From Aureimonas sp. SA4125 (lineage in GTDB: Bacteria > Pseudomonadota > Alphaproteobacteria > Rhizobiales > Rhizobiaceae): a stretch of 64,000 nucleotides of DNA. Below, piece after piece: positions 6,601-63,165 of this stretch. The stretch covers positions 1,860,001-1,924,000 of the forward strand of contig NZ_AP025032.1 in assembly GCF_019973775.1 (NCBI RefSeq), read 5' to 3'. The translations under genes and the position numbers were made by a program. Position 1 is the first letter of the stretch; each line of letters opens with the position of its first letter. The notes below the pieces were generated by a model, which ran no database searches, was not told the origin of the DNA, and worked only from the letters and a program-made list of their open reading frames with translations.

Positions 6601-7230
6601 GCGCAGCTGCGCGTTGATGCCGGCAGCAGTGACGCCGAGCGCCGCCAGCCGGTCGGGATCGAGCCGCACCTGGATCTCGCGCTCGACGCCGCCGACGCGC
6701 TCGACACGGCCGACTCCCTTCAGCCCCTGAAGGGCGCGCACGACGGTATCGTCGACGAACCAGGAGAGCTGCTCGGGCGTCTTGCCAAGGGAAGAGGCGG
6801 CATAGGTGACGATCGACTGGTTCTCGACCTCGATGCGCTGGATGATCGGTTCCTCGATCGTCCGCGGCAGGTCGGAACGGACCTTGGCGATGGCGTCCTT
6901 GACGTCGTTCAGCGCACGGTCGGTATCGATCTCCAGCCGGAACTCGGCGGCGCTCACCGACTGTCCGTCGGTCACGGTCGAGGTGATGTGCTTGATGCCG
7001 GAGACGCCGGCGATGGCGTCCTCGACCTTCTTCGTCACCTGCGTCTCGAGCTCGGACGGCGCCGAGCCCGACTGCGTCACCGTGACGGCGATGACCGGCA
7101 CGTCGATATTCGGAAAGCGGGTGATCGGCAGCGCGAAGAAGCTGACGATGCCGAGCGCGACCAGGACGACGAAGAGCAGGATCGGCGGAACCGGGTTGCG
7201 GATCGCCCAGGCGGAGATATTCCAGTTCAT
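3655..7230 (-). CDS. RND-family multidrug efflux transporter, inner-membrane pump
   Basis: 1191 residues of the HAE-1/AcrB-MexF class of proton-driven inner-membrane exporters. The N-terminus (ISAWAIRNPVPPILLFV) is the first helix. The proton-relay aspartates are seen in GILVDDAIVEIENIERHM, and the second half repeats the fold (LMGIVTKNSIMLVDFA). It is longer than AcrB (about 1050) because of roughly 90 extra residues before LPTGFIPKED. These carry two additional hydrophobic stretches, and there is also a charged C-terminal tail of about 60 residues. It overlaps the adaptor gene by 4 bp. No outer-membrane channel gene is adjacent. Confidence 0.94.
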   Translation of the reverse strand: MNWNISAWAIRNPVPPILLFVVLVALGIVSFFALPITRFPNIDVPVIAVTVTQSGSAPSELETQVTKKVEDAIAGVSGIKHITSTVTDGQSVSAAEFRLEIDTDRALNDVKDAIAKVRSDLPRTIEEPIIQRIEVENQSIVTYAASSLGKTPEQLSWFVDDTVVRALQGLKGVGRVERVGGVEREIQVRLDPDRLAALGVTAAGINAQLRATNVDLSGGRGEFGGQEQAIRTLAAADSVAGLAATRIFLPGGREVRLSELGEVVDSWEEPRSFARLDGEPVVAFSLYRAKGASDTTVADAAADKVAELATQYPDVIFAKIDDSVTYTYGNFESAMETLVEGALLAVIVVLIFLRDWRATAVAAITLPLAAIPTFWAMSMMDFSLNLVSLLAVTLVTGILVDDAIVEIENIERHMAMGKPPYRASMEAADEIGLAVIAITMTIIAVFAPVSFMPGVAGQYFKQFGLTVAVAVFFSLLVARLITPMLAAYFFRPHAATGPGFWRLFGRRLLWFGIPGALGIAALFGLAFLPDADLGNGTAASMLRSYAGMLPPVSLDEAREYGLAVAGGVVIVAALFAYIAMPHPAEHHDGLIMRAYTSFLRGTMHTFWIWTPFKRRRKDGERTRVHVPFGMRWVTLAVGLGLFFWAMDSIKYLPTGFIPKEDASRIVVSFELPPGSTLDRTQAVTDEVVASIRELPEVRSVLVIGGASPTGTLEIRRAGITINLVRKFERTRSQGDLEPVVAAKLAAIPDIRSFYVNDRGERELSIGILGSDGDAVAEVAADLESQMRRDPMFSNPSAMASFARPEIRIRPRLDQAADLAIAPEAISETVRVATIGDVGANLAKFNVGTRQVPIRVELRESARHDLATIRNLRVLTGTGASVPLESVADIGFGQGPSTIDRYDRERLVKVGTSMMPGFEIGQGSERIKTFPAITDMPAGVRMQEVGDAEIQAEVFTGFASAMGAGIMMVLVVLILLFGSVFVPITILASLPLSVGGVVGALLLTHTAVSMPVVIGILMLMGIVTKNSIMLVDFAVEQEKHGMPQHDAIIDAGRKRARPIIMTTLAMAAGMVPAAMASGEGGEFRAPMAIAVIGGLLVSTVLSLVFIPTVYTLMDDLSHLVGRVFGWMLSPNASDEHSADHAEAIVPASAVAAAPSKPEKADEKDTTWKRVTEFSSGDGPDRPSPAGMQQAAE

Positions 7231-8441
7231 CCCTTGGCCTCCGGATCGATCTCGACCGCCGTCACGGCGTCGCCGTTCCGGACAAAGGTGCCGGCGAGCG
7301 CCACGACCCGCTCGCCTTCCTTGATGCCGCCGGTGATCTCGATATCGCCGCCGCTGGAAATGCCTGTCGTGACGTCCCGGCTTTCGATCGTGCCGTCGTT
7401 CACGACCTGGACGAGCGCCTTGTCGCCGTCGACGACGACGGCCGTCTGCGGCACGGTGACGCCGCGGCTGCGGGCGATCTCGACGGTGCCGCGCGCGAAC
7501 ATGCCGGTGCGCAGGCTGGGAGAGGGATCGAGCGCGATGAGGACGCGCCCCAGCCGGGTCGTCTCGTCGACCTTGGGCGAGACGAGGCGGACATGTCCGA
7601 CGAGGGGTTCGGAGGAGCCGGCGAGCGAGACGCTCACGGCCTGATCCCTCTTCAGCGACGCAAGCACCGTCTCGCTGACCGCGGCGTCGAGTTCGATCAA
7701 TCCGTCGCGGGCGATCTCGAACAGGGCGCCACCGGCTGCGGATGCGATCGCGCCGAGGCGGGCGGAGCGCGACAGGACCAGCCCGTCCGTCGGCGCCTTG
7801 ATCTCGGCCTTGGCCTTTCTCAGTTCGAGCTGCCGCCTGTTGGCGTCGAGCACCGCCTTGTCCGCGACGGCGACGGCGACACCCTGGCGGGCGCTTGCGA
7901 GCTGCGCCCGGGCGCCTGCGGCGGCCGAGACGCGCTGCTCGAGGACGTCCTGGCCGACGATGCCTTTCGTGGCGAGCGGACGCGATCGGGCGAGCGCGGC
8001 ATCGGCCTCGATCGCGGCGGCCTCGGCCTGCGCGATCTGGCTCTCCGCCTGCGCGATGGCGGCATCGGCGCGGGCGAGCTGCGAGACGTTCTGCGCCAGA
8101 TCGGTTTCGATCAGGTCGGTCGACAGGCGCGCGAGGACCTCGCCGGCCGACACCCTGTCGCCCTCGTCGGCAAGGAGCGCCTCGATCCGGAGACCGTCGA
8201 CATCGGCGCCGACCATCACCGTCTCGCGCGGAACCAGCGTGCCGGTGATGGTGACCCGGGCGACGAGTTCACGCACGGTCGCCGGCACGACCGAGACGCT
8301 CGGCGCCGGAGGGGCGACACCGACCGGTGCGACACCCGCCGGTGCGGGGTTTGCGGGCGCGGCTTCCTGGGCTGCCGCCGGCATCCCGGCAAAGGCGAGG
8401 ACAGCAACAAGGGGCAGGATGATCCGATTACGAACGGACAT
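7227..8441 (-). CDS. Periplasmic adaptor (membrane fusion) subunit of the RND pump
   Basis: 404 residues when started at the ATG at 8441, which is preceded by a good GAGGAAAT ribosome site; an upstream in-frame ATG is less likely. An N-terminal signal peptide ends near AAAQEA. An HlyD/AcrA-type architecture follows: a barrel-sandwich half (VGADVDGLRIEALLADEGD), an alanine/glutamate-rich helical hairpin, the second lipoyl half (IKAPTDGLVLSRSARLG) and a beta-barrel. It would bridge the RND pump to an outer-membrane channel. It is coupled to the pump gene by an ATGA overlap and lies 68 bp downstream of the TetR regulator. Confidence 0.93.
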   Translation of the reverse strand: MSVRNRIILPLVAVLAFAGMPAAAQEAAPANPAPAGVAPVGVAPPAPSVSVVPATVRELVARVTITGTLVPRETVMVGADVDGLRIEALLADEGDRVSAGEVLARLSTDLIETDLAQNVSQLARADAAIAQAESQIAQAEAAAIEADAALARSRPLATKGIVGQDVLEQRVSAAAGARAQLASARQGVAVAVADKAVLDANRRQLELRKAKAEIKAPTDGLVLSRSARLGAIASAAGGALFEIARDGLIELDAAVSETVLASLKRDQAVSVSLAGSSEPLVGHVRLVSPKVDETTRLGRVLIALDPSPSLRTGMFARGTVEIARSRGVTVPQTAVVVDGDKALVQVVNDGTIESRDVTTGISSGGDIEITGGIKEGERVVALAGTFVRNGDAVTAVEIDPEAKG

Positions 8442-8509
8442 GATTTCCTCAACCATCTGCGGGCCGATCCGCCATTTGAAAGTCGCCATTGCGCCCAAAA
8501 GAAGGGCCG

Positions 8510-9190
8510 TCATTTCTCGTCAGACGCCCTGCGCCGCGGCTCGCCGAGGACACCGACGACGCTGCGTCGCAGATACGGCTCGACCAGCTCGAGGTCGAAG
8601 TCGGGCTCGATCTGCAAGCGCATCACGAGCCCGTCGCCGAGCGAGAACAGGACGAAGAGCGCGGTCTCGACATCGACATGCGCGTCGATCTCGCCCTCGG
8701 TCTGGGCCTCGACGAGGCTCTGGCGGAAGGCATCGCGGACCTCTCTTTCCACCTCGTGGAATCGCTTGCCGACAGCAGTGTTGCGGATGCTCTCCGAACA
8801 GATCTCCACCATCAGGCCGCCGGTCGCGGGATCGCGGGTGCTGCGCAGGTAGTCCATGGCAACCGCGGTGATGCGATCGACGATGCTGCCGCCGGCCGAC
8901 AGGCCCTGCATGCAGGCGGCAGCCTGACCGCGCTCCTCCTCGGCGATCGCCTCGATGATGGCATCCTTGGCCGGAAAATAGCGGTAAAGCGCGCCCGGGC
9001 TCATCTGTGCCTCGGCGCAGATCTGCTGCATCGATGCCCCATGGAACCCGGATCGCGCAAAGCACGCTCGTGCGGCCGCAAGCACATGCAGCCGCCGCTG
9101 ATCGTGCGCCGTCACCGGCTCGGGATCGTCGAGATGGAAAACCAAGGGCAGGCCTTCGTCAGGAAAGGGAGAGCGAATGATCGTTCTCAT
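8510..9190 (-). CDS. TetR-family transcriptional regulator
   Basis: The N-terminal helix-turn-helix is clear (AARACFARSGFHGASMQQI, then a GALYRYFPAKDAI recognition segment), followed by a ligand-binding helical domain with a TetR_C-type pattern. It is first in the same transcriptional direction as the adaptor and pump, so it probably represses its own operon until a substrate binds. The start is uncertain: ATG 9190 is used here, but a GTG close to the HTH or an ATG further upstream is possible because none has a strong ribosome site. Confidence 0.88.
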   Translation of the reverse strand: MRTIIRSPFPDEGLPLVFHLDDPEPVTAHDQRRLHVLAAARACFARSGFHGASMQQICAEAQMSPGALYRYFPAKDAIIEAIAEEERGQAAACMQGLSAGGSIVDRITAVAMDYLRSTRDPATGGLMVEICSESIRNTAVGKRFHEVEREVRDAFRQSLVEAQTEGEIDAHVDVETALFVLFSLGDGLVMRLQIEPDFDLELVEPYLRRSVVGVLGEPRRRASDEK

Positions 9191-9402
9191 ACACCAGCAG
9201 GGCCCGGCGGTCGAGTCCATGGGCGCGCGGAAGGCCGCGGCAAAGCACGCGGCAGGCTCCTGCCAGAAGGGTCGGTCTATCCGTCGGAAAACTCCGGACA
9301 TTTCATCCGCGCCGCCTTGGCACGCGGAATTTCTGCGGCACGGACGGCCGCCGGCGCAGTCAGGCAGCCGAGCCGTTCGCCGGCCGGATTTCTCGTCGGC
9401 TC

Positions 9403-10656
9403 CTAGCGGAAGATCGACGCGAAGCGGCCCACCGGGTTTCTGGACATCTTCGCGACCACGACGAGCTTCTTGATCTCGCCGCGCCGGAAGGCCGCGAGGA
9501 AACGCTTGTAGTCCTTGATCGAAACGCAGCCGTTTGAATCGCCGCCTTTGCCCAGCATGTAGGTGTGGGCCAGAAGACCGTTGCGGTTGTGAATCGCCTT
9601 CTGGCCGCCGACCGGGTTGAGCCGGATCGCCGCCACGCCGTGGAAAAGGCTTTCGCGCATGCTGAGCGTGTAGGTGTGGGGCGGGGTCGGGCCACGCATC
9701 TTCTTGTGCGCGTAACTCGGATCGTCGCGCATCATGCCGAGCCCGGAATGCGCCTCGAGCTTCTCGCCGTTGGGCAGATAGACCATCGCGGCGCTGATGT
9801 CGTAGACGGCGACGCCCTTGCCGGGCGTCGCGAAGGTGCGGCCCCTGAACGGCGGGGGGACATCGTCGTCGCCGGCATCCGGGCGGGCGTAGGCAAGCAC
9901 GGGGACCTTCGGCTCGCGGCGTGCGGGACGGGTCGCGGCGACGGGCCGGTCGGCGTCTCTGATCCGGTGCCGCGGCCGGGCGCGGGGAGTCGGGACGCTG
10001 GCTGCTTCCAGCTCCGGCGCCGGATGGGCGATGACGCTGCTTGGAAGCCGCGATGGTTCGAGCAGCGCCACCTCGACCTGCGGGCCATTGTCGGTCGCGC
10101 CCGGCGGAGAGACGATCGTCGCGGGAACGGCAGCGCTGGCGATGGCGAAAGCCGGCTCCTGTGCGAGATCCAGAGCGATCCTGCGGCTGTCGGTCTGTGC
10201 CATGCGGTAGCCGGCCGACGGCATGAAGGATGTCGGCTGGCCGGCCGGGCCGAAAAGTCGGTGCGACAAGCCCGGCATGGTCATCGCCATGGTGACCGGC
10301 TTCGGCTCGGCCCGGCCGGTCTGCAAGGTGGCAGGCTGGGGAATGGAGAGGCGGTGCGCAACCGGCTGCAGCGGCGACAGCACGCGCATCGATTTGTCGT
10401 GGGCGCGAGACGACCTCGCCGCGTTCGCGGAACCTGCGGCAGGGGGCACCGATGCGGCTGCGACGGCGTGCGCGGGTGCGATGGCATACGGCACGGTCCG
10501 CGCCGCGACCGCGACGAGACCGGCCGACAGCGTGAAGCCGGCGGCGACTGCCCAGATCAGGCCCGAACGCTTGCGGAAAGGAGTGGGGCGCGGCGGCTCT
10601 TCCGACAACTGTGGCTTTGTCCAGAAAGGTGCGACAGCGTCGAAGCGGGATGTCAT
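9403..10656 (-). CDS. DUF2778 (Tlde1-like) L,D-transpeptidase-fold protein with N-terminal anchor
   Basis: 417 residues: a short cytoplasmic N-terminus, one membrane helix at about 33-55, a long proline/alanine-rich linker, and a C-terminal DUF2778 domain from about residue 265. The domain ends in the L,D-transpeptidase-type nucleophile motif SNGCVSIKDY (Cys377), preceded by a histidine in HTYMLGKGGD. In Salmonella the Tlde1 member is a type VI secretion effector that cuts or exchanges peptidoglycan peptides. In Rhizobiales such anchored versions are chromosomal and may simply be envelope enzymes. No T6SS genes are in the window. Confidence 0.82.
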   Translation of the reverse strand: MTSRFDAVAPFWTKPQLSEEPPRPTPFRKRSGLIWAVAAGFTLSAGLVAVAARTVPYAIAPAHAVAAASVPPAAGSANAARSSRAHDKSMRVLSPLQPVAHRLSIPQPATLQTGRAEPKPVTMAMTMPGLSHRLFGPAGQPTSFMPSAGYRMAQTDSRRIALDLAQEPAFAIASAAVPATIVSPPGATDNGPQVEVALLEPSRLPSSVIAHPAPELEAASVPTPRARPRHRIRDADRPVAATRPARREPKVPVLAYARPDAGDDDVPPPFRGRTFATPGKGVAVYDISAAMVYLPNGEKLEAHSGLGMMRDDPSYAHKKMRGPTPPHTYTLSMRESLFHGVAAIRLNPVGGQKAIHNRNGLLAHTYMLGKGGDSNGCVSIKDYKRFLAAFRRGEIKKLVVVAKMSRNPVGRFASIFR

Positions 10657-31777: not shown

Positions 31778-32932
31778 CCAACGTGCGCCGTTTCTGACTC
31801 GTATGGGATTCCCAGATCGAGGAAAGTCTGAATCATTGAGGCAAACGGAGGTTTGCCATGGTGAGACCCATTCCGCTGCGCGTTGATTTTGACGGTCTTG
31901 GCCTGCGTCGTCTGGCGCGGGAGACCAAGGACGCCAACCAGGCGCGCCGTCTTCTGGCGCTTGCGACGATCTACGATGGAGGCTCTCGTTCCCAGGCGGC
32001 CGAAGTGGGCAGCGTCACTGTGCAGATCGTGCGTGACTGGGTCGTACGGTTCAACGAACGAGGTCCTGTGGGTCTCGTCAACGTCAAGGCGCCGGGCAGT
32101 TCCTCCAAGCTGAATGACAAGCAGCGCCATGCCTTGGCGAAGATTGTGGAGAGCGGCCCGATCCCGGCGATCCACGGCGTCGTGCGCTGGCGGCGCAAGG
32201 ATCTGGCGCAGTGGATCTATGAGGAATTCGCCATCTCGTTGGACGAGACCACGGTCGGGCGCGAACTGAAGGCGCTTGGCTTTGCCAAGCTCTCGGCGCG
32301 TCCGCGCCACTATGCGCAGAACGAGTTCGAGGTGGATGCTTTCAAAAAAACTTCCCCGCCGAACTGGCAGCCATCCAGGCCAAGCTCCCGAAGGGTACCG
32401 AGATCGAGCTCTGGTGGGCTGATGAAACCCGCATAGGGCAAAAGAACAAGATCACCCGCCGTTGGGCCCGGCGCGGCACGAGACCGTCCGCGCCGCAGGA
32501 CCAACGCACCATGTGGGCCTATATCTTCGGCGCCGTCTGCCCGCAGAAGGGCAAGGGTGCCGGCCTCGTCCTGCCCTACTGCGACACCGGCGCGATGAAC
32601 CAGCACCTGGCGGAGATCTCACGCGCCGTCGATCCTGGCGCCCATGCCGTGCTGATCCTCGATCGCGCCGGCTGGCACATGACGCCCAAGCTCGTCGTGC
32701 CCGAAAACATCACGCTGCTCTTCCTACCGCCTCACGCGCCTGAGTTGAACCCGGTCGAGAACGTCTGGCAGTTCATGCGCGACAACTGGCTCTCAAACCG
32801 CATCTTCATCGACTACGACGACATCGTCACACACTGCTGCGAGGCCTGGAATAAGCTCGTCGACCAACCCTGGAAAATCATCTCCATCGGCATGCGTGAC
32901 TGGGCACACAGGTTCTGATCAGCGCTTGTTGG
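31778..32932 (+). mobile_element. IS630-family insertion sequence
   Basis: About 1155 bp bounded by TA dinucleotides (31776-31777 and 32933-32934), the target of IS630/Tc1-type elements. The imperfect terminal repeats are CCAACGTGCGCC on the left and, reading inward from the right, CCAACAAGCGCT. It contains one transposase gene. The flanking genes are both missing their 5' ends, so the site is a rearrangement junction rather than a simple insertion. Confidence 0.85.
31858..32918 (+). CDS. IS630 transposase, probably made by -1 frameshifting
   Basis: The N-terminal helix-turn-helix half (31858 to about 32350, with SRSQAAEVGSVTVQIVRDWV) is in one frame. The DDE catalytic half (ADETRIGQ, LILDRAGWH, PELNPVENVWQFMRDNW) is in the -1 frame and ends at 32918. 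The switch falls on seven consecutive A at 32344-32350 (TTC AAA AAA A). Reading with a -1 slip gives about 353 continuous residues, the normal size. The element may therefore be active. Confidence 0.82.
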
Positions 32933-33456
32933 TATGACGTCGTCACTTCGTTGGCTGGCCGATCGCATGCCGGGAATCCCGACGATCTACGTCCCGGGAA
33001 ATCACGACTTCTACCGCAACGGCGGTCCGGACGGCTTCACGATCAACAGCGAGATCGACGACGGACGGGAGCTGGCTGCGAAGACCGGGGTCCATCTTCT
33101 GATCGACGACACCATCGAGTTGGCCGGATACAGGTTCCTCGGCTCGACACTGTGGACGGATCTTCGCGCTTGCCACTCGCGTGACCTAGCCCATGCGTGC
33201 GGCGAGGCCCGCCGAGGGATGAACGATTACAGACGCATCCATCGCGCCTCGTCCACAAGGCGGTCGCGCAGGCTGCAACCTAGCGACACGCTCGCCATGC
33301 ACCGCCGATCGTGGATTTTCCTGTCCGACCAGTTCCGGGCGGGCGATGCCTCGCGCACCATCGTCGTCACACACCACGCGCCCAGCATAGCTTCTCTCCG
33401 GGATCCGTTCGAGCCCCTGAACCAGTGCTACGCCTCTGACCTCAACGCCGAGATTC

Positions 33457-34832
33457 GGTCGTGTCCGTCAACGTGGTGGAAATTGGGGTGTAACTGAAGC
33501 GGCTCGGTTTCAGGCGGCTGCGGTGGAAATACGTACGGTTTCGGGCTTGGTGCTGTTGGACATGAGTTCGGCCATGGGTTCGGTCTGCATGTAGCGGTTT
33601 TGCGTCTGCCATTCGTCGTTGGCCTCGAGGAGGACGGCGCCGATGAGGCGGATGATGGAGCCCTCGTTCGGGAAGATGCCGACGACATCGGCGCGCCGCT
33701 TCACCTCCTTGTTCAGGCGCTCCAGGGAATTGGTCGAATGGATCCGGGTCCGATGCTGACCGGGAAAGTCCAGATGCGCCAGCACGTCGGTCTCGCTGTC
33801 GTCGATGAAGCTGCCGAGCTTGGGACACTTTCCCCGGAGCTGGTCGGCGACGTGGCGCAGCGCCTGGGCCGCGCCGGCGCGATCGGGTTGGATGAAGGCC
33901 TGGCGCAGGGCCGCAGCCGCCATGCTTTGCTGCGCCTTCGGGACATAGGACAGGGCGTTGCGCATCCAGTGGACGCGGCAGCGCTGCCAGGAGGCGCTGA
34001 ACACCCGGCGGATGGCGGCCTTCAGCCCTTCATGGGCATCCGATATCACGAGCTTCACGCCGGAAAGGCCGCGGCGCACGAGGCTCTTGAGGAAGGTCGA
34101 CCAGAAGGTCTCCGCTTCCGAGGGCCCGATGTGAAGGCCGACGATCTCGCGCTTGCCGTCGGTGTTGACGGCGACAGCGATTATTGCCGCCACCGAGACG
34201 ATACGGCCGCCTTCGCGCTGCTTCAGGTAGGTCGCGTCGAGCCAGAGATAGGGCCAGTCGCCGGTGAGCGGGCGATCGAGAAAGCCGCCGACGCGGTCGT
34301 CGATATCTTTGCACAGCTTCGACACCGTGCTCTTGCCGATCCCCGACAGTCCCATGGCCTGCACCAGATCGTCGACGCGACGCGTGGACACGCCGCTGAT
34401 CCAGGCCTCCTGGATGACCGCGACAAGCGCCTTCTCCGAGAGCTTTCTCGGTTCCAGGAACGGCGGAAAGTAGCTGCCTTGTCGAAGCTTGGGGATGCGA
34501 AGCTGCAAGGAGCCAAGCCGGGTATCGAACGAGCGGTCCCGGTAGCCGTTGCGATAGGTCGCCCGTTCCAGGGTGCGTTCATGGCGCCCGGCGCCGATCA
34601 TGCCCTCCACGTCGGCCTCCATGAGAAGCTGCATCACGCTCTCGGCTATCGTCCTCAGGAAATCGCCGTCTCCGGCTTTTGCCAGAAGCTCGGCAAGCGG
34701 TAATCTGTCCTCGGTCATCGGGTGCTCCGGTCAGGTTGAAGTCTCGCAACTCCACCTTAGCCGGCCAATCCGGTGGCCACCTCCGTCGCACCATCTGAGA
34801 TCCGAGTTTCCACCACCAGCGCGGACACTACC
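33457..34832 (-). mobile_element. IS256-family element, copy A
   Basis: 1376 bp, flanked by perfect 8-bp duplications CGAGATTC (33449-33456 and 34833-34840). The ends read GGTCGTGTCCG on the left and, inward from the right, GGTAGTGTCCGCG, continuing into a shared GTGGTGGAAA block. It interrupts the metallophosphoesterase gene. Slightly divergent from the other three copies. Confidence 0.93.
33510..34718 (-). CDS. IS256 (mutator-type) transposase, copy A
   Basis: 402 residues of the Transposase_mut family, with the first catalytic aspartate in LWLDATYLKQREGG, the second near LVISDAHEGLKAAI and the glutamate in STNSLERLNKEVKRR. It differs from the other copies at scattered positions and in its last residues (TVRISTAAA). 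Intact. Confidence 0.95.
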   Translation of the reverse strand: MTEDRLPLAELLAKAGDGDFLRTIAESVMQLLMEADVEGMIGAGRHERTLERATYRNGYRDRSFDTRLGSLQLRIPKLRQGSYFPPFLEPRKLSEKALVAVIQEAWISGVSTRRVDDLVQAMGLSGIGKSTVSKLCKDIDDRVGGFLDRPLTGDWPYLWLDATYLKQREGGRIVSVAAIIAVAVNTDGKREIVGLHIGPSEAETFWSTFLKSLVRRGLSGVKLVISDAHEGLKAAIRRVFSASWQRCRVHWMRNALSYVPKAQQSMAAAALRQAFIQPDRAGAAQALRHVADQLRGKCPKLGSFIDDSETDVLAHLDFPGQHRTRIHSTNSLERLNKEVKRRADVVGIFPNEGSIIRLIGAVLLEANDEWQTQNRYMQTEPMAELMSNSTKPETVRISTAAA

Positions 34833-35149
34833 CGAGATTCTCATGTGGCGACCGGCTTTGTGGGTCCATGGCCACATCCACCAGGCCTGCGACCATCGCA
34901 TCGGGGACACGCGCATCCTCTGCAATCCGGCAGGCAGGGCGGAGGAAAATACCGGCTTCGACGCCGGCCTCGTCGTGACGATGGTCGCATGACGCACGGA
35001 CCCACCGATAGGAACGGACGAATGCCCCACCACCCGATGCTCAAACCGAAACCGCTCGTCGGCATCTCGCCGACCGTGACCCGCCGGAGGTAGCTCAGCC
35101 CCTCCGGTGCATCCTTGCATGAGCCGCAAAGCGGCATCGGAGTGATCAT

Positions 35150-35782
35150 ATGAACACCGTCTACGAAGTCCATTTTCCCGACCACCATGTCGATGCGCTG
35201 GAGGTGTCGGTCGCAAAGGCCGCCGCCAGTCGCATGGCGTTGTCGACCTTTCACCTCCAGACATGCAGCGAACGCCCGATGTTTCGGACGATTTGCGCTC
35301 GCGACCTGGCGCTCCTCCTGAACATCGACGTCAATGTCGCCGACTTCCGCTGCTTGCCAGGCATAGTCGAGGGCACCGATGCCAGTGGAGACAAGCTGCG
35401 GCACGTCCCCGACTTCCTGGTGACGTACGAGAATGGTGACCGGGTCTTCCTCGACGCAGACGGCCCAGCCCGCTTCCGTCCCCTGGACCCCGGCGTCGGC
35501 TACTCATCGATCGGAGAGGACGAGATCCGGACCGAGCCCCGGATGACAAACGCACGCGAGGCCTTCCGGTATTCGCTGCACCAGGTGTCGATGTCCGACC
35601 GTCTACGACTTCAGGCAGCCCTGCGCGACAATCCATCAATTTCCCTCGTCGAGGCATCGACCGCGATCCGCATGTCCGACGACGAATTCGCCTGCATCAT
35701 TGCTCTGGCCGTGAAGCGCGTCCTTCACATCGACTGGTCCGAAGTGATCGGGCCGGACACCCGCGTGAGGCTCGCACGATGA
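35150..35782 (+). CDS. TnsA-N-like protein of unknown function
   Basis: 210 residues, soluble. The middle follows the pattern of TnsA-type endonuclease domains: ARDLALLLNIDVNVADFRCL, then RHVPDFLVTYENGDRVFLDA. The aspartate of PDFLV is kept, but the lysine normally found where DAD occurs is not, so nuclease activity is doubtful. The C-terminal third looks like a small helical, winged-helix-type domain. It overlaps the AAA+/M41 gene by 4 bp, so the two proteins are probably made together. I do not know a characterised homologue. Confidence 0.65.
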   Translation: MNTVYEVHFPDHHVDALEVSVAKAAASRMALSTFHLQTCSERPMFRTICARDLALLLNIDVNVADFRCLPGIVEGTDASGDKLRHVPDFLVTYENGDRVFLDADGPARFRPLDPGVGYSSIGEDEIRTEPRMTNAREAFRYSLHQVSMSDRLRLQAALRDNPSISLVEASTAIRMSDDEFACIIALAVKRVLHIDWSEVIGPDTRVRLAR

Positions 35783-37779
35783 CCGTCGACAAGCTCAGGC
35801 ACGACCCCATCATCGGGGCGTTGGACTTTGATTTTTGCGAAGACGGCGTCGAAGGCGATGAATCGACGGAAGCCTATCTAAAGGACATGCTCGCCAGAGC
35901 CGTCCTGGCCCTCCGACCATCCCAGTTCGTGATCTTCGAGGCGCTTCTTGCCGCCGACAGCACGAAGGCAATCAAGCGGCTCGAGGCGGGCGGCAGGATC
36001 TGCGTCGTCATGCGTGTCCCATCCGAAGCGTGGAGCGATTGCACGACGAAGAGCCTCGACACGTTCGTGACCCATCTGGCGCTTGGCACGCAGAATCCGC
36101 ATCTCGCCTCGATCAAGGTCCACGTTCCCGAGAAGCCTAGCCACAGGGCTCGGAACAAGGCGCCGCTCGTAAACGTGCCGCAGGTGCTGATCGGGATTCA
36201 AGTGAGCCATGTTGCCGTGGTGGTCGAGCCCGGGCACGATCTGCCGGACCTGTTCAAGGTGATCGCCGACATCACGCACGATCTGACGAGAATTCCTACG
36301 GAGCACTTCGTGGCAGCTCTCCGGCGTCGGTATCCCGACGGCGACATCACCTGGCCGAAGTCGCTCGACGTCGCCGGTGTGAGCCCAGTCCCGCTCGACT
36401 TCGCCTGCAGCCGCGGCGAAAATGTCACCGACTGTCTCGAACTTCTCGATGTTCTGGTTCGCCAGGAGCTCGAGGCGTCAGGGAGGTCGCCCCTCTCCGC
36501 CACCGGACCGGCACTTGCCGATTTACATGGCTATGGCGAAGCCAAGGAATGGGGCATGCGCCTGGTCGCCGACCTTGCGGAATTCGGCAAGGGCACGTTG
36601 CCTTGGTCCGAGATCGATGGCGGTTGCCTGCTCGTCGGGCCGCCCGGCACCGGCAAGACGCTCTTCGCGTCCGCCCTCGCCAAGTCCGCCGGCGTCAACT
36701 TCATCTCGACTTCCTACGCCGAATGGCAATCGGCAAAGGAAGGCCATTCCGGCGATGTCATCCGCACGATGCGCGAGCGTTTTGCAGCGGCGGCCAGCGC
36801 CGCGCCGGCGATCCTCTTCATCGACGAGATCGACAGCATGGTCGCTCGGGGAACCAGTGCCCGCCATGATGACTGGTGGCGCATGATGGTCAACGCGCTG
36901 CTGGAATGTCTCGACGGCACCGGTCGAAGGGAAGGCGTCGTCGTCATCGCCGCCTGCAACGATGCGGATTCGCTGGATCCCGCGATGGTTCGCTCCGGTC
37001 GGCTCGACCGGCGCTTCCGGGTCGAGCTGCCGGACGAGGCCGACCTCATCAGGATCTTCCAGCATCATCTCCCCGGCATCGCCGCCGCCGACATCGAGCC
37101 GGCGGCGATCGCATTGGCCGGATCAACCTCGGGCGCGGATGCGGCAAGGCTAGCACGCGAAGCGAGAAGCGCCGCCAGAAGGGAAAACCGAGAAGTGACC
37201 TCCGTCGATCTGATGACCGCGGCCCTGCCGATCGACCTTCGCCCTTGCGGTCTGCGAAACGTTGTCGCCGTTCATGAAGCTGGGCATGCCATCGTCTGCA
37301 TGCTGATGGGAAACATGCCTCGCTCCCTGTCCATCGTCCAAAACGGTGACGCCGGAGGCGGCGTAGCGGTCAATCAGCAGATCAACGAGAACCGAATCGA
37401 AGACTACGACAATGTCGTTCGGCAGCTGCTCGGCGGTCGTGCTGCCGAGGAACTGATCTTCGGAAAGGTCTCCGCAGGAGCTGGAGGTGGAAGCGATTCC
37501 GATCTCGGACGGGTCACGGCGATCATCTCGAATGTCCATGCCCGACTAGGTCTTGGGTCGAACCTGATGTCGACGGACGGCATCGAAGGCGACTTCGTCG
37601 AAGGCCGGATCAGGCGTCTCTACGCCGAAACGCAGATGATGCTGGCAGGAGAGAGGGAAGCGCTGTCCGCCTTGGCTTCGCTGGCTCTCATGCGTCGCGT
37701 TCTCGGGAACCGTGAACTCCGAGCATTTGCCGACGAGTGGGAACTTTTCGATCCTTATCGAGCCTGCCGCACCATGTGA
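35779..37779 (+). CDS. Soluble AAA+ / M41 FtsH-like zinc metalloprotease
   Basis: 666 residues. A unique N-terminal region of about 240 residues, without membrane helices, precedes an AAA+ module with Walker A GPPGTGKT (287-294), Walker B ILFIDEID (345-352), and the second region of homology with arginine fingers in RSGRLDRRFRVELP. The M41 protease domain follows: zinc motif HEAGH (499-503), LLGGRAAEELIFG and the third-ligand segment SDSDLGRVT. FtsH itself is membrane-anchored; this one is not. It would be an ATP-dependent protease with an unusual adaptor-like N-terminus. Confidence 0.85.
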   Translation: MTVDKLRHDPIIGALDFDFCEDGVEGDESTEAYLKDMLARAVLALRPSQFVIFEALLAADSTKAIKRLEAGGRICVVMRVPSEAWSDCTTKSLDTFVTHLALGTQNPHLASIKVHVPEKPSHRARNKAPLVNVPQVLIGIQVSHVAVVVEPGHDLPDLFKVIADITHDLTRIPTEHFVAALRRRYPDGDITWPKSLDVAGVSPVPLDFACSRGENVTDCLELLDVLVRQELEASGRSPLSATGPALADLHGYGEAKEWGMRLVADLAEFGKGTLPWSEIDGGCLLVGPPGTGKTLFASALAKSAGVNFISTSYAEWQSAKEGHSGDVIRTMRERFAAAASAAPAILFIDEIDSMVARGTSARHDDWWRMMVNALLECLDGTGRREGVVVIAACNDADSLDPAMVRSGRLDRRFRVELPDEADLIRIFQHHLPGIAAADIEPAAIALAGSTSGADAARLAREARSAARRENREVTSVDLMTAALPIDLRPCGLRNVVAVHEAGHAIVCMLMGNMPRSLSIVQNGDAGGGVAVNQQINENRIEDYDNVVRQLLGGRAAEELIFGKVSAGAGGGSDSDLGRVTAIISNVHARLGLGSNLMSTDGIEGDFVEGRIRRLYAETQMMLAGEREALSALASLALMRRVLGNRELRAFADEWELFDPYRACRTM

Positions 37780-45853: not shown

Positions 45854-47228
45854 GGTAGTGTCCGCGCTCGTGGTGGAAATTCCGACATTGAAAGGTGTGG
45901 CTGAGGCGGTCACCGGATAGGGCGGCTAAGGTGGAGTTGCGAGACTTCAACCTGACCGGAGAACCCGATGACCGAGGACAGACTACCGCTTGCCGAGCTT
46001 TTTGCGAAAGCCGGGGACGGCGATTTCCTGAGAACGATAGCCGAGAGCGTGATGCAGCTCCTTATGGAGGTCGACGTTGAAGGCATGATCGGCGCCGGGC
46101 GCCACGAACGGACGCAGGAACGGGCGACTTATCGCAATGGCTACCGCGACCGCTCGCTCGACACGCGGCTCGGCTCGTTGCAGCTTCGGATACCCAAGCT
46201 TCGGCAGGGCAGCTACTTCCCGCCGTTCCTGGAGCCGAGAAAGCTCTCGGAGAAGGCCTTGGTTGCCGTCATTCAGGAAGCTTGGATCAGCGGCGTTTCC
46301 ACCCGGCGGGTCGACGATCTGGTACAGGCCATGGGGCTGTCGGGGATCGGCAAGAGCACCGTATCGAAGCTGTGCAAAGACATCGACGAACGCGTCGGCG
46401 GCTTCCTCGACCGTCCTCTCACTGGCGACTGGCCCTACCTCTGGCTGGATGCGACCTACCTGAAGCAGCGCGAGGGTGGACGCATCGTTTCGGTCGCCGC
46501 CATAATCGCCGTGGCCGTGAACACGGACGGCAAGCGCGAGATCGTCGGCCTTCACATCGGCCCCTCGGAAGCGGAGACGTTTTGGTCGAGCTTCCTCAAG
46601 AGCCTCGTGCGCCGCGGCCTGTCCGGCGTGAAGCTCGTGATCTCGGATGCTCACGAAGGGCTGAAAGCCGCCATTCGCCGGGTGTTCAGCGCCTCCTGGC
46701 AGCGCTGCCGGGTGCATTGGATGCGCAACGCCCTGTCGTATGTCCCGAAGGCGCAGCAGAGCATGGCGGCGGCCGCGCTGCGCCAAGCCTTCGCCCAGCC
46801 CGATCGTGCTAGCGCCAGCCAGGCGCTGCGCCACGTCGCCGACCAGCTTCGGGGAAAGTGTCCAAAGCTCGGGGCCTTCATCGACAACAGCGAGACCGAC
46901 GTGCTGGCGCACATGGATTTTCCCAGTCAGCACCGGACCCGGATCCATTCGACGAATTCCCTGGAGCGCCTGAACAAGGAGGTGAAGCGGCGTGCCGACG
47001 TCGTCGGAATCTTCCCGAACGAGGGATCCATCATCCGGCTCATCGGCGCCGTCCTTCTCGAGGCCAACGACGAATGGCAGATCCAGAACCGCTACATGCA
47101 GACCGAACCCATGGCCGACCTCATGGCCATGGGCAACACTGCAAAACCCGAACAGATTTCCACCGAAGTCGCCTGAAACGGAGCCGCTTCAGCTACACTC
47201 AATTTCCACCACGTTGACGGACACGACC
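45854..47228 (+). mobile_element. IS256-family element, copy B
   Basis: 1375 bp with perfect 8-bp duplications GGCGGATC (45846-45853 and 47229-47236). Ends GGTAGTGTCCGCG and, inward from the right, GGTCGTGTCCGTC. It lies just upstream of the large regulator's start. Opposite orientation to copies A, C and D. Confidence 0.95.
45968..47176 (+). CDS. IS256 transposase, copy B
   Basis: 402 residues, translation identical to copies C and D. Catalytic segments LWLDATYLKQREGG, LVISDAHEGLKAAI and STNSLERLNKEVKRR are intact. Confidence 0.95.
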   Translation: MTEDRLPLAELFAKAGDGDFLRTIAESVMQLLMEVDVEGMIGAGRHERTQERATYRNGYRDRSLDTRLGSLQLRIPKLRQGSYFPPFLEPRKLSEKALVAVIQEAWISGVSTRRVDDLVQAMGLSGIGKSTVSKLCKDIDERVGGFLDRPLTGDWPYLWLDATYLKQREGGRIVSVAAIIAVAVNTDGKREIVGLHIGPSEAETFWSSFLKSLVRRGLSGVKLVISDAHEGLKAAIRRVFSASWQRCRVHWMRNALSYVPKAQQSMAAAALRQAFAQPDRASASQALRHVADQLRGKCPKLGAFIDNSETDVLAHMDFPSQHRTRIHSTNSLERLNKEVKRRADVVGIFPNEGSIIRLIGAVLLEANDEWQIQNRYMQTEPMADLMAMGNTAKPEQISTEVA

Positions 47229-49946: not shown

Positions 49947-51321
49947 GGTCGTGTCCGTCAACGTGGTGGAAATTGAGTGTAGCTGAAGCGGCTCCGTTTC
50001 AGGCGACTTCGGTGGAAATCTGTTCGGGTTTTGCAGTGTTGCCCATGGCCATGAGGTCGGCCATGGGTTCGGTCTGCATGTAGCGGTTCTGGATCTGCCA
50101 TTCGTCGTTGGCCTCGAGAAGGACGGCGCCGATGAGCCGGATGATGGATCCCTCGTTCGGGAAGATTCCGACGACGTCGGCACGCCGCTTCACCTCCTTG
50201 TTCAGGCGCTCCAGGGAATTCGTCGAATGGATCCGGGTCCGGTGCTGACTGGGAAAATCCATGTGCGCCAGCACGTCGGTCTCGCTGTTGTCGATGAAGG
50301 CCCCGAGCTTTGGACACTTTCCCCGAAGCTGGTCGGCGACGTGGCGCAGCGCCTGGCTGGCGCTAGCACGATCGGGCTGGGCGAAGGCTTGGCGCAGCGC
50401 GGCCGCCGCCATGCTCTGCTGCGCCTTCGGGACATACGACAGGGCGTTGCGCATCCAATGCACCCGGCAGCGCTGCCAGGAGGCGCTGAACACCCGGCGA
50501 ATGGCGGCTTTCAGCCCTTCGTGAGCATCCGAGATCACGAGCTTCACGCCGGACAGGCCGCGGCGCACGAGGCTCTTGAGGAAGCTCGACCAAAACGTCT
50601 CCGCTTCCGAGGGGCCGATGTGAAGGCCGACGATCTCGCGCTTGCCGTCCGTGTTCACGGCCACGGCGATTATGGCGGCGACCGAAACGATGCGTCCACC
50701 CTCGCGCTGCTTCAGGTAGGTCGCATCCAGCCAGAGGTAGGGCCAGTCGCCAGTGAGAGGACGGTCGAGGAAGCCGCCGACGCGTTCGTCGATGTCTTTG
50801 CACAGCTTCGATACGGTGCTCTTGCCGATCCCCGACAGCCCCATGGCCTGTACCAGATCGTCGACCCGCCGGGTGGAAACGCCGCTGATCCAAGCTTCCT
50901 GAATGACGGCAACCAAGGCCTTCTCCGAGAGCTTTCTCGGCTCCAGGAACGGCGGGAAGTAGCTGCCCTGCCGAAGCTTGGGTATCCGAAGCTGCAACGA
51001 GCCGAGCCGCGTGTCGAGCGAGCGGTCGCGGTAGCCATTGCGATAAGTCGCCCGTTCCTGCGTCCGTTCGTGGCGCCCGGCGCCGATCATGCCTTCAACG
51101 TCGACCTCCATAAGGAGCTGCATCACGCTCTCGGCTATCGTTCTCAGGAAATCGCCGTCCCCGGCTTTCGCAAAAAGCTCGGCAAGCGGTAGTCTGTCCT
51201 CGGTCATCGGGTTCTCCGGTCAGGTTGAAGTCTCGCAACTCCACCTTAGCCGCCCTATCCGGTGACCGCCTCAGCCACACCTTTCAATGTCGGAATTTCC
51301 ACCACGAGCGCGGACACTACC
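49947..51321 (-). mobile_element. IS256-family element, copy C
   Basis: 1375 bp with perfect 8-bp duplications GGAGTATC (49939-49946 and 51322-51329). Inserted directly behind the stop of the TIR-like pseudogene. Inverted relative to copy B, which lies 2.7 kb away. Confidence 0.95.
49999..51207 (-). CDS. IS256 transposase, copy C
   Basis: 402 residues, identical in translation to copies B and D; all three catalytic segments present. Confidence 0.95.
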   Translation of the reverse strand: MTEDRLPLAELFAKAGDGDFLRTIAESVMQLLMEVDVEGMIGAGRHERTQERATYRNGYRDRSLDTRLGSLQLRIPKLRQGSYFPPFLEPRKLSEKALVAVIQEAWISGVSTRRVDDLVQAMGLSGIGKSTVSKLCKDIDERVGGFLDRPLTGDWPYLWLDATYLKQREGGRIVSVAAIIAVAVNTDGKREIVGLHIGPSEAETFWSSFLKSLVRRGLSGVKLVISDAHEGLKAAIRRVFSASWQRCRVHWMRNALSYVPKAQQSMAAAALRQAFAQPDRASASQALRHVADQLRGKCPKLGAFIDNSETDVLAHMDFPSQHRTRIHSTNSLERLNKEVKRRADVVGIFPNEGSIIRLIGAVLLEANDEWQIQNRYMQTEPMADLMAMGNTAKPEQISTEVA

Positions 51322-61790: not shown

Positions 61791-63165
61791 GGTCGTGTCC
61801 GTCAACGTGGTGGAAATTGAGTGTAGCTGAAGCGGCTCCGTTTCAGGCGACTTCGGTGGAAATCTGTTCGGGTTTTGCAGTGTTGCCCATGGCCATGAGG
61901 TCGGCCATGGGTTCGGTCTGCATGTAGCGGTTCTGGATCTGCCATTCGTCGTTGGCCTCGAGAAGGACGGCGCCGATGAGCCGGATGATGGATCCCTCGT
62001 TCGGGAAGATTCCGACGACGTCGGCACGCCGCTTCACCTCCTTGTTCAGGCGCTCCAGGGAATTCGTCGAATGGATCCGGGTCCGGTGCTGACTGGGAAA
62101 ATCCATGTGCGCCAGCACGTCGGTCTCGCTGTTGTCGATGAAGGCCCCGAGCTTTGGACACTTTCCCCGAAGCTGGTCGGCGACGTGGCGCAGCGCCTGG
62201 CTGGCGCTAGCACGATCGGGCTGGGCGAAGGCTTGGCGCAGCGCGGCCGCCGCCATGCTCTGCTGCGCCTTCGGGACATACGACAGGGCGTTGCGCATCC
62301 AATGCACCCGGCAGCGCTGCCAGGAGGCGCTGAACACCCGGCGAATGGCGGCTTTCAGCCCTTCGTGAGCATCCGAGATCACGAGCTTCACGCCGGACAG
62401 GCCGCGGCGCACGAGGCTCTTGAGGAAGCTCGACCAAAACGTCTCCGCTTCCGAGGGGCCGATGTGAAGGCCGACGATCTCGCGCTTGCCGTCCGTGTTC
62501 ACGGCCACGGCGATTATGGCGGCGACCGAAACGATGCGTCCACCCTCGCGCTGCTTCAGGTAGGTCGCATCCAGCCAGAGGTAGGGCCAGTCGCCAGTGA
62601 GAGGACGGTCGAGGAAGCCGCCGACGCGTTCGTCGATGTCTTTGCACAGCTTCGATACGGTGCTCTTGCCGATCCCCGACAGCCCCATGGCCTGTACCAG
62701 ATCGTCGACCCGCCGGGTGGAAACGCCGCTGATCCAAGCTTCCTGAATGACGGCAACCAAGGCCTTCTCCGAGAGCTTTCTCGGCTCCAGGAACGGCGGG
62801 AAGTAGCTGCCCTGCCGAAGCTTGGGTATCCGAAGCTGCAACGAGCCGAGCCGCGTGTCGAGCGAGCGGTCGCGGTAGCCATTGCGATAAGTCGCCCGTT
62901 CCTGCGTCCGTTCGTGGCGCCCGGCGCCGATCATGCCTTCAACGTCGACCTCCATAAGGAGCTGCATCACGCTCTCGGCTATCGTTCTCAGGAAATCGCC
63001 GTCCCCGGCTTTCGCAAAAAGCTCGGCAAGCGGTAGTCTGTCCTCGGTCATCGGGTTCTCCGGTCAGGTTGAAGTCTCGCAACTCCACCTTAGCCGCCCT
63101 ATCCGGTGACCGCCTCAGCCACACCTTTCAATGTCGGAATTTCCACCACGAGCGCGGACACTACC
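61791..63165 (-). mobile_element. IS256-family element, copy D
   Basis: 1375 bp, flanked by a perfect 9-bp duplication GTCAGTCCG (61782-61790 and 63166-63174), one base longer than at the other copies. Same orientation as copy C, 10.5 kb away. Confidence 0.95.
61843..63051 (-). CDS. IS256 transposase, copy D
   Basis: 402 residues, identical in translation to copies B and C; intact catalytic segments. Confidence 0.95.
   Translation of the reverse strand: MTEDRLPLAELFAKAGDGDFLRTIAESVMQLLMEVDVEGMIGAGRHERTQERATYRNGYRDRSLDTRLGSLQLRIPKLRQGSYFPPFLEPRKLSEKALVAVIQEAWISGVSTRRVDDLVQAMGLSGIGKSTVSKLCKDIDERVGGFLDRPLTGDWPYLWLDATYLKQREGGRIVSVAAIIAVAVNTDGKREIVGLHIGPSEAETFWSSFLKSLVRRGLSGVKLVISDAHEGLKAAIRRVFSASWQRCRVHWMRNALSYVPKAQQSMAAAALRQAFAQPDRASASQALRHVADQLRGKCPKLGAFIDNSETDVLAHMDFPSQHRTRIHSTNSLERLNKEVKRRADVVGIFPNEGSIIRLIGAVLLEANDEWQIQNRYMQTEPMADLMAMGNTAKPEQISTEVA

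Follow-up and report, generated by a model that had tools for sequence, protein, structure and literature searches.

Two codirectional genes of Aureimonas sp. SA4125, named here T1 and A, lie in the window, a 64,000 nt stretch of contig NZ_AP025032.1, and specify a TnsA-like protein and a soluble AAA+/M41 metalloprotease. The pair very probably belongs to Tn7-like elements of the Hyphomicrobiales, as an accessory pair. The explanation we prefer adds to this that the pair would remodel the transposition complex and that the window copy is a remnant; as a whole it is given a probability of about 45%. A first-pass annotation of the window had described two intact genes with a 4-bp overlap, and this is what is found (Table 1); the same overlap is present in several Aurantimonadaceae relatives.

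Conservation of the T1-A pair

A scan of genome contigs with five T1 proteins returned 74 loci, 73 of them with a T1 open reading frame (ORF); L143, in which no T1 ORF is present, was excluded. An A gene follows T1 in 69 of the 73 loci, so that the conserved pairing of two intact proteins proposed earlier is well founded. Pairs were accepted where A starts within 600 bp of the T1 end (68 loci), and L134, which falls outside this rule as the A ORF there begins before T1 ends, was added by eye. The 69 include six A genes that are split or truncated (L081, L094, L109, L111, L117 and L130). The T1 loci that lack A are L087, L089, L108 and L101, the last at a contig end, and some loci have a small gene between T1 and A. 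The pairing is not confined to close relatives, the outcome that had been named as speaking against a module, and was found across five families, Rhizobiaceae, Phyllobacteriaceae, Aurantimonadaceae, Methylobacteriaceae and Nitrobacteraceae, all of them Hyphomicrobiales. Trees of T1 and A have 40 of 65 splits in common, compared with no more than 2 in any of 500 label shuffles, a congruence that is partly due to related hosts. In both trees the window locus clusters with eight Aurantimonadaceae loci, with the warning that the window branch is long in the T1 tree.

Linkage to Tn7-like transposition genes

Of the 73 T1 loci, 25 have a TnsB gene in the flank that was fetched, and 29 have any of TnsB, TnsC and TniQ there. 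In L050 and L051, an rve-like TnsB (weak Pfam match, E 0.01), a TniB/TnsC and a TniQ are next to the pair, and the second TnsA of L057 matches PF08722. Forty-four whole genomes, including the window genome and two controls (G718 and G719), were then surveyed, giving 70 T1 matches, a figure that takes in fragments, stop-containing matches and near-identical genomes (G698/G705 and G707/G708), and 68 TnsB matches, distributed over 40 of the 44 genomes. T1 is on the same contig as TnsB in 42/70 cases and within 50 kb of it in 35/70. The arrangement of those 35 is biased: 21 are divergent with TnsB upstream, 10 are codirectional with TnsB downstream and 4 are arranged otherwise, and the tnsA side faces T1-A in 31/35 (binomial p 1.7e-06, relatedness ignored). 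In L056, a 1038-aa ORF matching the TnsB profile (6659-9775) overlaps a TnsA-like ORF, and TnsC and TniQ belong to the same operon.

The association was also approached from the TnsB side. Among 295 genomes sampled from the order, 27 had a TnsB match and 5 a T1 match (E 1e-20), the window genome being one of the five; two of these five T1 matches are a fragment or stop-containing. Most of the sequences in the TnsB profile came from T1-A loci, which biases the ranking of TnsB matches. Examination of 25 of 34 TnsB matches (9 were left out, and several contigs are short) showed a full A, defined as scoring over 400 bits where the genome's own FtsH scores 263, near the tns genes in 12. Eight of these 12 are codirectional with tnsA and lie 0.6-1.9 kb 5' of it. 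The 19 TnsB-first loci that were read contained no T1 match above 36 bits.

Several observations weigh against the preferred explanation. TnsB is absent from the contig for 28 of the 70 T1 matches (many of these contigs are short), and the distance between T1-A and TnsB can reach 47 kb, with T1-A set among genes that look like cargo (PIN, C5 methylase, FRG). The window genome gave no TnsB match under conditions in which both controls matched, three other T1 genomes gave none either, and there is no TnsB in the 49.9 kb read around the copy on Rhizobium leguminosarum pRL1 (L144). Some relatives of A have neither T1 nor TnsB near them in the sequence read, and a full A was found in 0/15 TnsB loci of a class sample, in which stretches were at most 20 kb and some were short (L205, 10.4 kb; L211, 3.7 kb), so that a more distant A would be missed. 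A is frequent in the Hyphomicrobiales TnsB lineage; next to the TnsB genes sampled from elsewhere, none was observed.

The same neighbourhoods could be read as those of a cargo module against phages or plasmids, in which T1 would sense a foreign nuclease, transposase or DNA and A would degrade the target or a host protein. Defensive-looking neighbours (the PIN, C5 methylase and FRG genes, and a reverse-transcriptase-like protein in L140 with weak matches), an island with DUF1837, methylase and HNH genes, and the T1 copies without TnsB on their contig are all in keeping with such a module, as is the wealth of defence genes in Tn7-like cargo described in one survey (PMC8649781). We nevertheless regard it as unlikely: the partner is a TnsA relative, the orientation towards the tns genes is biased, and in several elements A is just 5' of tnsA with no T1 in the stretch read. 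Nor did PADLOC return a system-specific defence match for T1-A; no model matched T1, and the nine that matched A did so over the ATPase domain alone (IetA, TRIP13, mad8, MkoA). A piece of the metallophosphoesterase (MPE) gene upstream of T1 weakly matched PDC-S10 (19.7 bits).

Delimited elements at nrdJ

Several loci have a conserved gene downstream of A; this is nrdJ, specifying a vitamin B12-dependent ribonucleotide reductase (NCBIfam NF005736, 2275 bits vs a cut-off of 1737). Repeat searches for transposon ends beside T1-A found none; comparison of nrdJ flanks revealed the ends of two elements (Table 1). The Jiella endophytica element (L136 = G714) has the ends TGTC[A/C]CGCGACA[T/C]ATA and contains A, T1, MPE, TnsB, TnsC and TniQ. 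The ends of the Rhizobium johnstonii 3841 element (L121 = G707) are akin to these, with 5 mismatches in 24, and the element carries TniQ, TnsC and TnsB towards one end and T1-A on the nrdJ side. In these two relatives, TnsB, TnsC, TniQ and T1-A are accordingly enclosed by paired ends and a 5-bp duplication. An alternative left end of the R. johnstonii element, 7.6 kb further out and with 4 mismatches instead of 5, shows no duplication and was rejected. The idea that T1-A is an attachment site outside the element was also rejected, because both delimited elements contain the pair.

Table 1. Features of the window and the two delimited elements of relatives
Feature	Coordinates	Strand	Details
T1	35150..35782	+	TnsA-like protein, 210 aa; degenerate nuclease site, conserved C-terminal half
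A	35779..37779	+	Soluble AAA+/M41 metalloprotease, 666 aa
T1/A stop/start overlap	35779..35782	+	4 bp
MPE remnant, piece before IS256	32934..33456	+	About 44 N-terminal residues gone
MPE remnant, piece after IS256	34833..34992	+	
IS256-family element	33457..34832	-	Transposase ORF 33510-34718; 8-bp target duplication CGAGATTC
IS630-family transposase	31858..32918	+	Two ORFs, 31858-32436 and 32511-32918
Jiella endophytica element	249963 to 276140		26.2 kb; just 3' of nrdJ; 5-bp duplication GGCCG
Rhizobium johnstonii 3841 element	1990925 to 2049533		58.6 kb; 3' end of nrdJ; 5-bp duplication CCTAT

In Aureimonas glaciei (L140 3246-7034), a 1262-aa protein is encoded between A and nrdJ. Its matches, to antiviral reverse transcriptases and to those of group II introns, are weak and sub-threshold.

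T1 as a degenerate TnsA homologue

Comparison of profiles (hhalign) gave an alignment of T1 with TnsA that spans 161 columns and extends into the C-terminal half, with a probability of 97.4% (E 1.2e-11). The TnsA profile consisted of 11 canonical-looking TnsA proteins, chosen for that look, and itself matches PseCAST TnsA constructs in the Protein Data Bank (PDB; best E 1.4e-05). The results of other searches were negative or weak: the T1 profile gave no TnsA match when searched directly against PDB sequences, a Pfam scan of T1 gave no match (E up to 0.1), and the match of T1 to NCBIfam NF033179 (TnsA_like) was sub-threshold (5.9e-06, 25.9 bits vs a cut-off of 110). When active-site positions are read from the hhalign alignment, the TnsA Glu position is occupied by Arg51 in T1 (61/61 rows) and the Lys position by Asp102 (58/61 rows), with the TnsA-type Asp retained as Asp88 (59/61 rows). 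We take these Glu, Asp and Lys positions to be the catalytic residues of Tn7 TnsA. Judged by its sequence, T1 is a TnsA homologue without the full Glu/Asp/Lys active site, much as the first-pass annotation had it when it described a TnsA-like protein lacking the catalytic lysine.

Some genes in the TnsA position, directly before TnsB, also seem to lack Glu and Lys (L050 6238-6828, L123 13572-14363 and L124 13763-14353), and the elements that carry them may transpose replicatively. Given these degenerate-looking genes, and a profile for which canonical ones were picked, T1 is not alone in having lost the site.

A as a soluble AAA+/M41 protease

A contains Pfam AAA (5.1e-32) and Peptidase_M41 (5.2e-15) domains, with a Walker A motif at residues 287-294, Walker B Asp349-Glu350, Arg405/Arg408 and HEAGH at 499-503; Asp575 was assigned as the third zinc ligand by analogy. 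Lys293, Asp349, Glu350, Arg405, Arg408, His499, Glu500, His503 and Asp575 are all kept in 56/56 A rows. The best 19-residue hydropathy of A is 1.67 vs 2.47 for the genome's own presumed FtsH, a separate protein encoded elsewhere, and values of at least 1.8 are reached in 10/56 A rows (maximum 1.96); by hydropathy, A has no FtsH-like membrane segment. The earlier picture of a 666-residue protein with intact Walker motifs and HEAGH and no membrane helix is confirmed by these data. A scores 188 bits against an FtsH cut-off of 600. In an AlphaFold model (mean predicted local distance difference test score 88.1, predicted template modelling score 0.75) the N-terminus forms a separate folded alpha/beta domain, at about residues 28-184, ahead of the ATPase.

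A phage origin of A was considered and dropped: none of 64 phage-record matches covers 80% of A, and the 15 matches listed cover only the AAA/M41 part, some being annotated as ftsH. A scan of viral contigs with T1 gave no match, and a scan of genome contigs with A alone confirmed no relative.

Longer A-type proteins, of about 900 aa, are found in six of the eight loci L061-L068 (that of L062 has 749 aa and that of L066 is cut). Several of these loci have conserved neighbours in common, and there is no TnsB in the stretches read.

Status of the window copy and its neighbours

Because TnsB finds no match in the window genome, this T1-A copy is probably a remnant, which has lost its transposase genes and kept two intact genes in a region rich in insertion sequences (IS). 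TniQ was not matched in this genome either, in a search that had no positive control. The genome's own nrdJ lies 83 kb downstream of T1-A in the same orientation, with several IS256 copies between, and 170 kb contained no convincing transposon ends beside T1-A. Just 3' of this nrdJ is a transposon-end-like pair of repeats 20 bp apart, CCAA[A/T]GTTGTAAAT, for which no second end was found; nrdJ is only a candidate insertion site for the window copy, by comparison with its relatives. The repeat region (C1 1981144-1985037) is at about window coordinate 121000, outside the window, and is followed by genes that a congeneric genome (G723) also has.

The codirectional MPE gene ending 157 bp upstream of T1 had been reported as broken, and is in fact broken twice, by the IS256 insertion and by a 5' truncation. 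The truncated residues include the first metal motif seen in the Jiella copy. At the truncation point MPE gives way to IS630 transposase sequence, the IS630 3' end being just before MPE, and no inverted repeats of this IS630 were found. The window contains four copies of one IS256-family element; the copy inside MPE shares about 89% identity with the other three (45968-47176, 49999-51207 and 61843-63051). In Rhizobium plasmids, MPE follows T1-A, overlapping A by 4 bp, or is close by on the opposite strand. MPE occurs within the fetched flank in 15/73 T1 loci and is an optional neighbour of T1-A, not a fixed third gene; of the conserved three-gene module that had been suggested, the T1-A pair stands but the MPE does not. 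An ImmA/IrrE remnant, also suggested nearby, finds a match that is only weak (Peptidase_M78 E 0.0092, below the cut-off).

The copy of pRL1 (L144 1-49901) has T1-A-MPE and two hypothetical genes in common with L015. Its island also holds DUF1837, methylase, HNH and IS66 genes.

Proposed role of the pair

Under the preferred explanation, A would be the element's own unfoldase/protease and would pull apart or degrade part of the TnsA-TnsB-TnsC complex, during or after transposition. T1 would be a non-cutting copy of TnsA that keeps TnsA-like surfaces, and would either bring A to TnsB/TnsC as an adaptor or compete with active TnsA. The precedent is ClpX, a host factor with a separate ClpP, which is thought to act in this manner on MuA. 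According to one study (PMC12326709), ClpX is also thought to remove the post-transposition complex of type I-F CRISPR-associated transposons (CASTs); in human cells it increases how active they are, at the price of toxicity. Since ClpX assists the CAST relatives of these elements, finding an AAA+ protease with a TnsA-related partner inside them suggests that the complex is remodelled or degraded. By this analogy, A may remodel or clear the transposition complex in a ClpX-like way with T1 as adaptor, a role we put forward at somewhat less than even odds. More tentatively, and with the balance leaning against it, this Tn7-like lineage might encode a dedicated AAA+ protease and a dead TnsA paralogue as its adaptor, finishing or limiting transposition without host ClpX, with the pair outliving the transposase in genomes such as that of the window. 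Control of mobile elements was among the roles listed in the first-pass annotation, an option that appears to have been right, while the link to Tn7-like transposons was missed.

A possible further adaptor is a small protein of the DUF6634 type. A cluster of small proteins adjoins A in 16 loci, and of two members scanned one scored above the DUF6634 cut-off and the other just below. DUF6634 proteins (PF20339) or close relatives occur beside A-type genes in many elements (for example L123 10633-10995, L072 12604-12963, which is just below the Pfam cut-off, and L020 3693-4160), and also where T1 is absent (L020).

The lack of an active site in a TnsA-like T1 would also suit control of copy number or exclusion, T1 acting as a decoy that binds TnsB/TnsC and A degrading both, which would limit transposition or exclude related elements. 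Stand-alone survivors would still protect the host, and this could explain retention of the pair without a transposase; several T1 and several TnsB matches in some genomes argue against strict exclusion, and we think this role distinctly improbable. Finally, related soluble M41 proteins in other contexts without T1 might suggest a regulatory protease and its substrate that belong to the host, have no role in transposition and were picked up by transposons by chance. That several families show the pair linked to tns genes in a preferred orientation, and that the T1 and A trees are congruent, makes this very improbable.

Disassembly of the transpososome limits Tn7-like and CRISPR-associated transposases. 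If remodelling by the pair is true, an element with its own AAA+ protease and a pseudo-TnsA would represent a solution that has co-evolved in nature and could serve directly as a test case, and a soluble FtsH relative would be placed in DNA transposition. The two delimited elements would also add nrdJ to the insertion sites of Tn7-like elements. Word counts and text of the accessible parts of two Tn7-like surveys gave no protease component (PMC10293859, PMC8649781), and a limited literature search, with most subscription papers and supplements outside its range, gave no T1-A pairing, no DUF6634 link and no mention of nrdJ as a Tn7 site.

Comparison with known systems

The T1-A elements resemble Tn7 and Tn7-like elements in their TnsB-, TnsC- and TniQ-type genes, 5'-TGT ends, 5-bp duplications and an insertion point immediately 3' of a conserved gene. 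They differ in that the insertion-site gene is nrdJ and in having an extra AAA+/M41 protease and a second, degenerate TnsA; the window locus differs further, being without transposase genes of this kind. T1 is homologous to the TnsA endonuclease over the 161 aligned columns but has Arg51 and Asp102 in place of Glu and Lys. A shares its AAA and M41 domains and catalytic residues with FtsH, which is membrane-anchored, whereas A has no membrane helix, has a different N-terminal domain and scores far below the FtsH cut-off. Like ClpX on MuA and type I-F CASTs, A is an AAA+ protein proposed to act in transposition; unlike ClpX, which is supplied by the host and relies on a separate ClpP, A is an element-encoded protein with a built-in protease domain.

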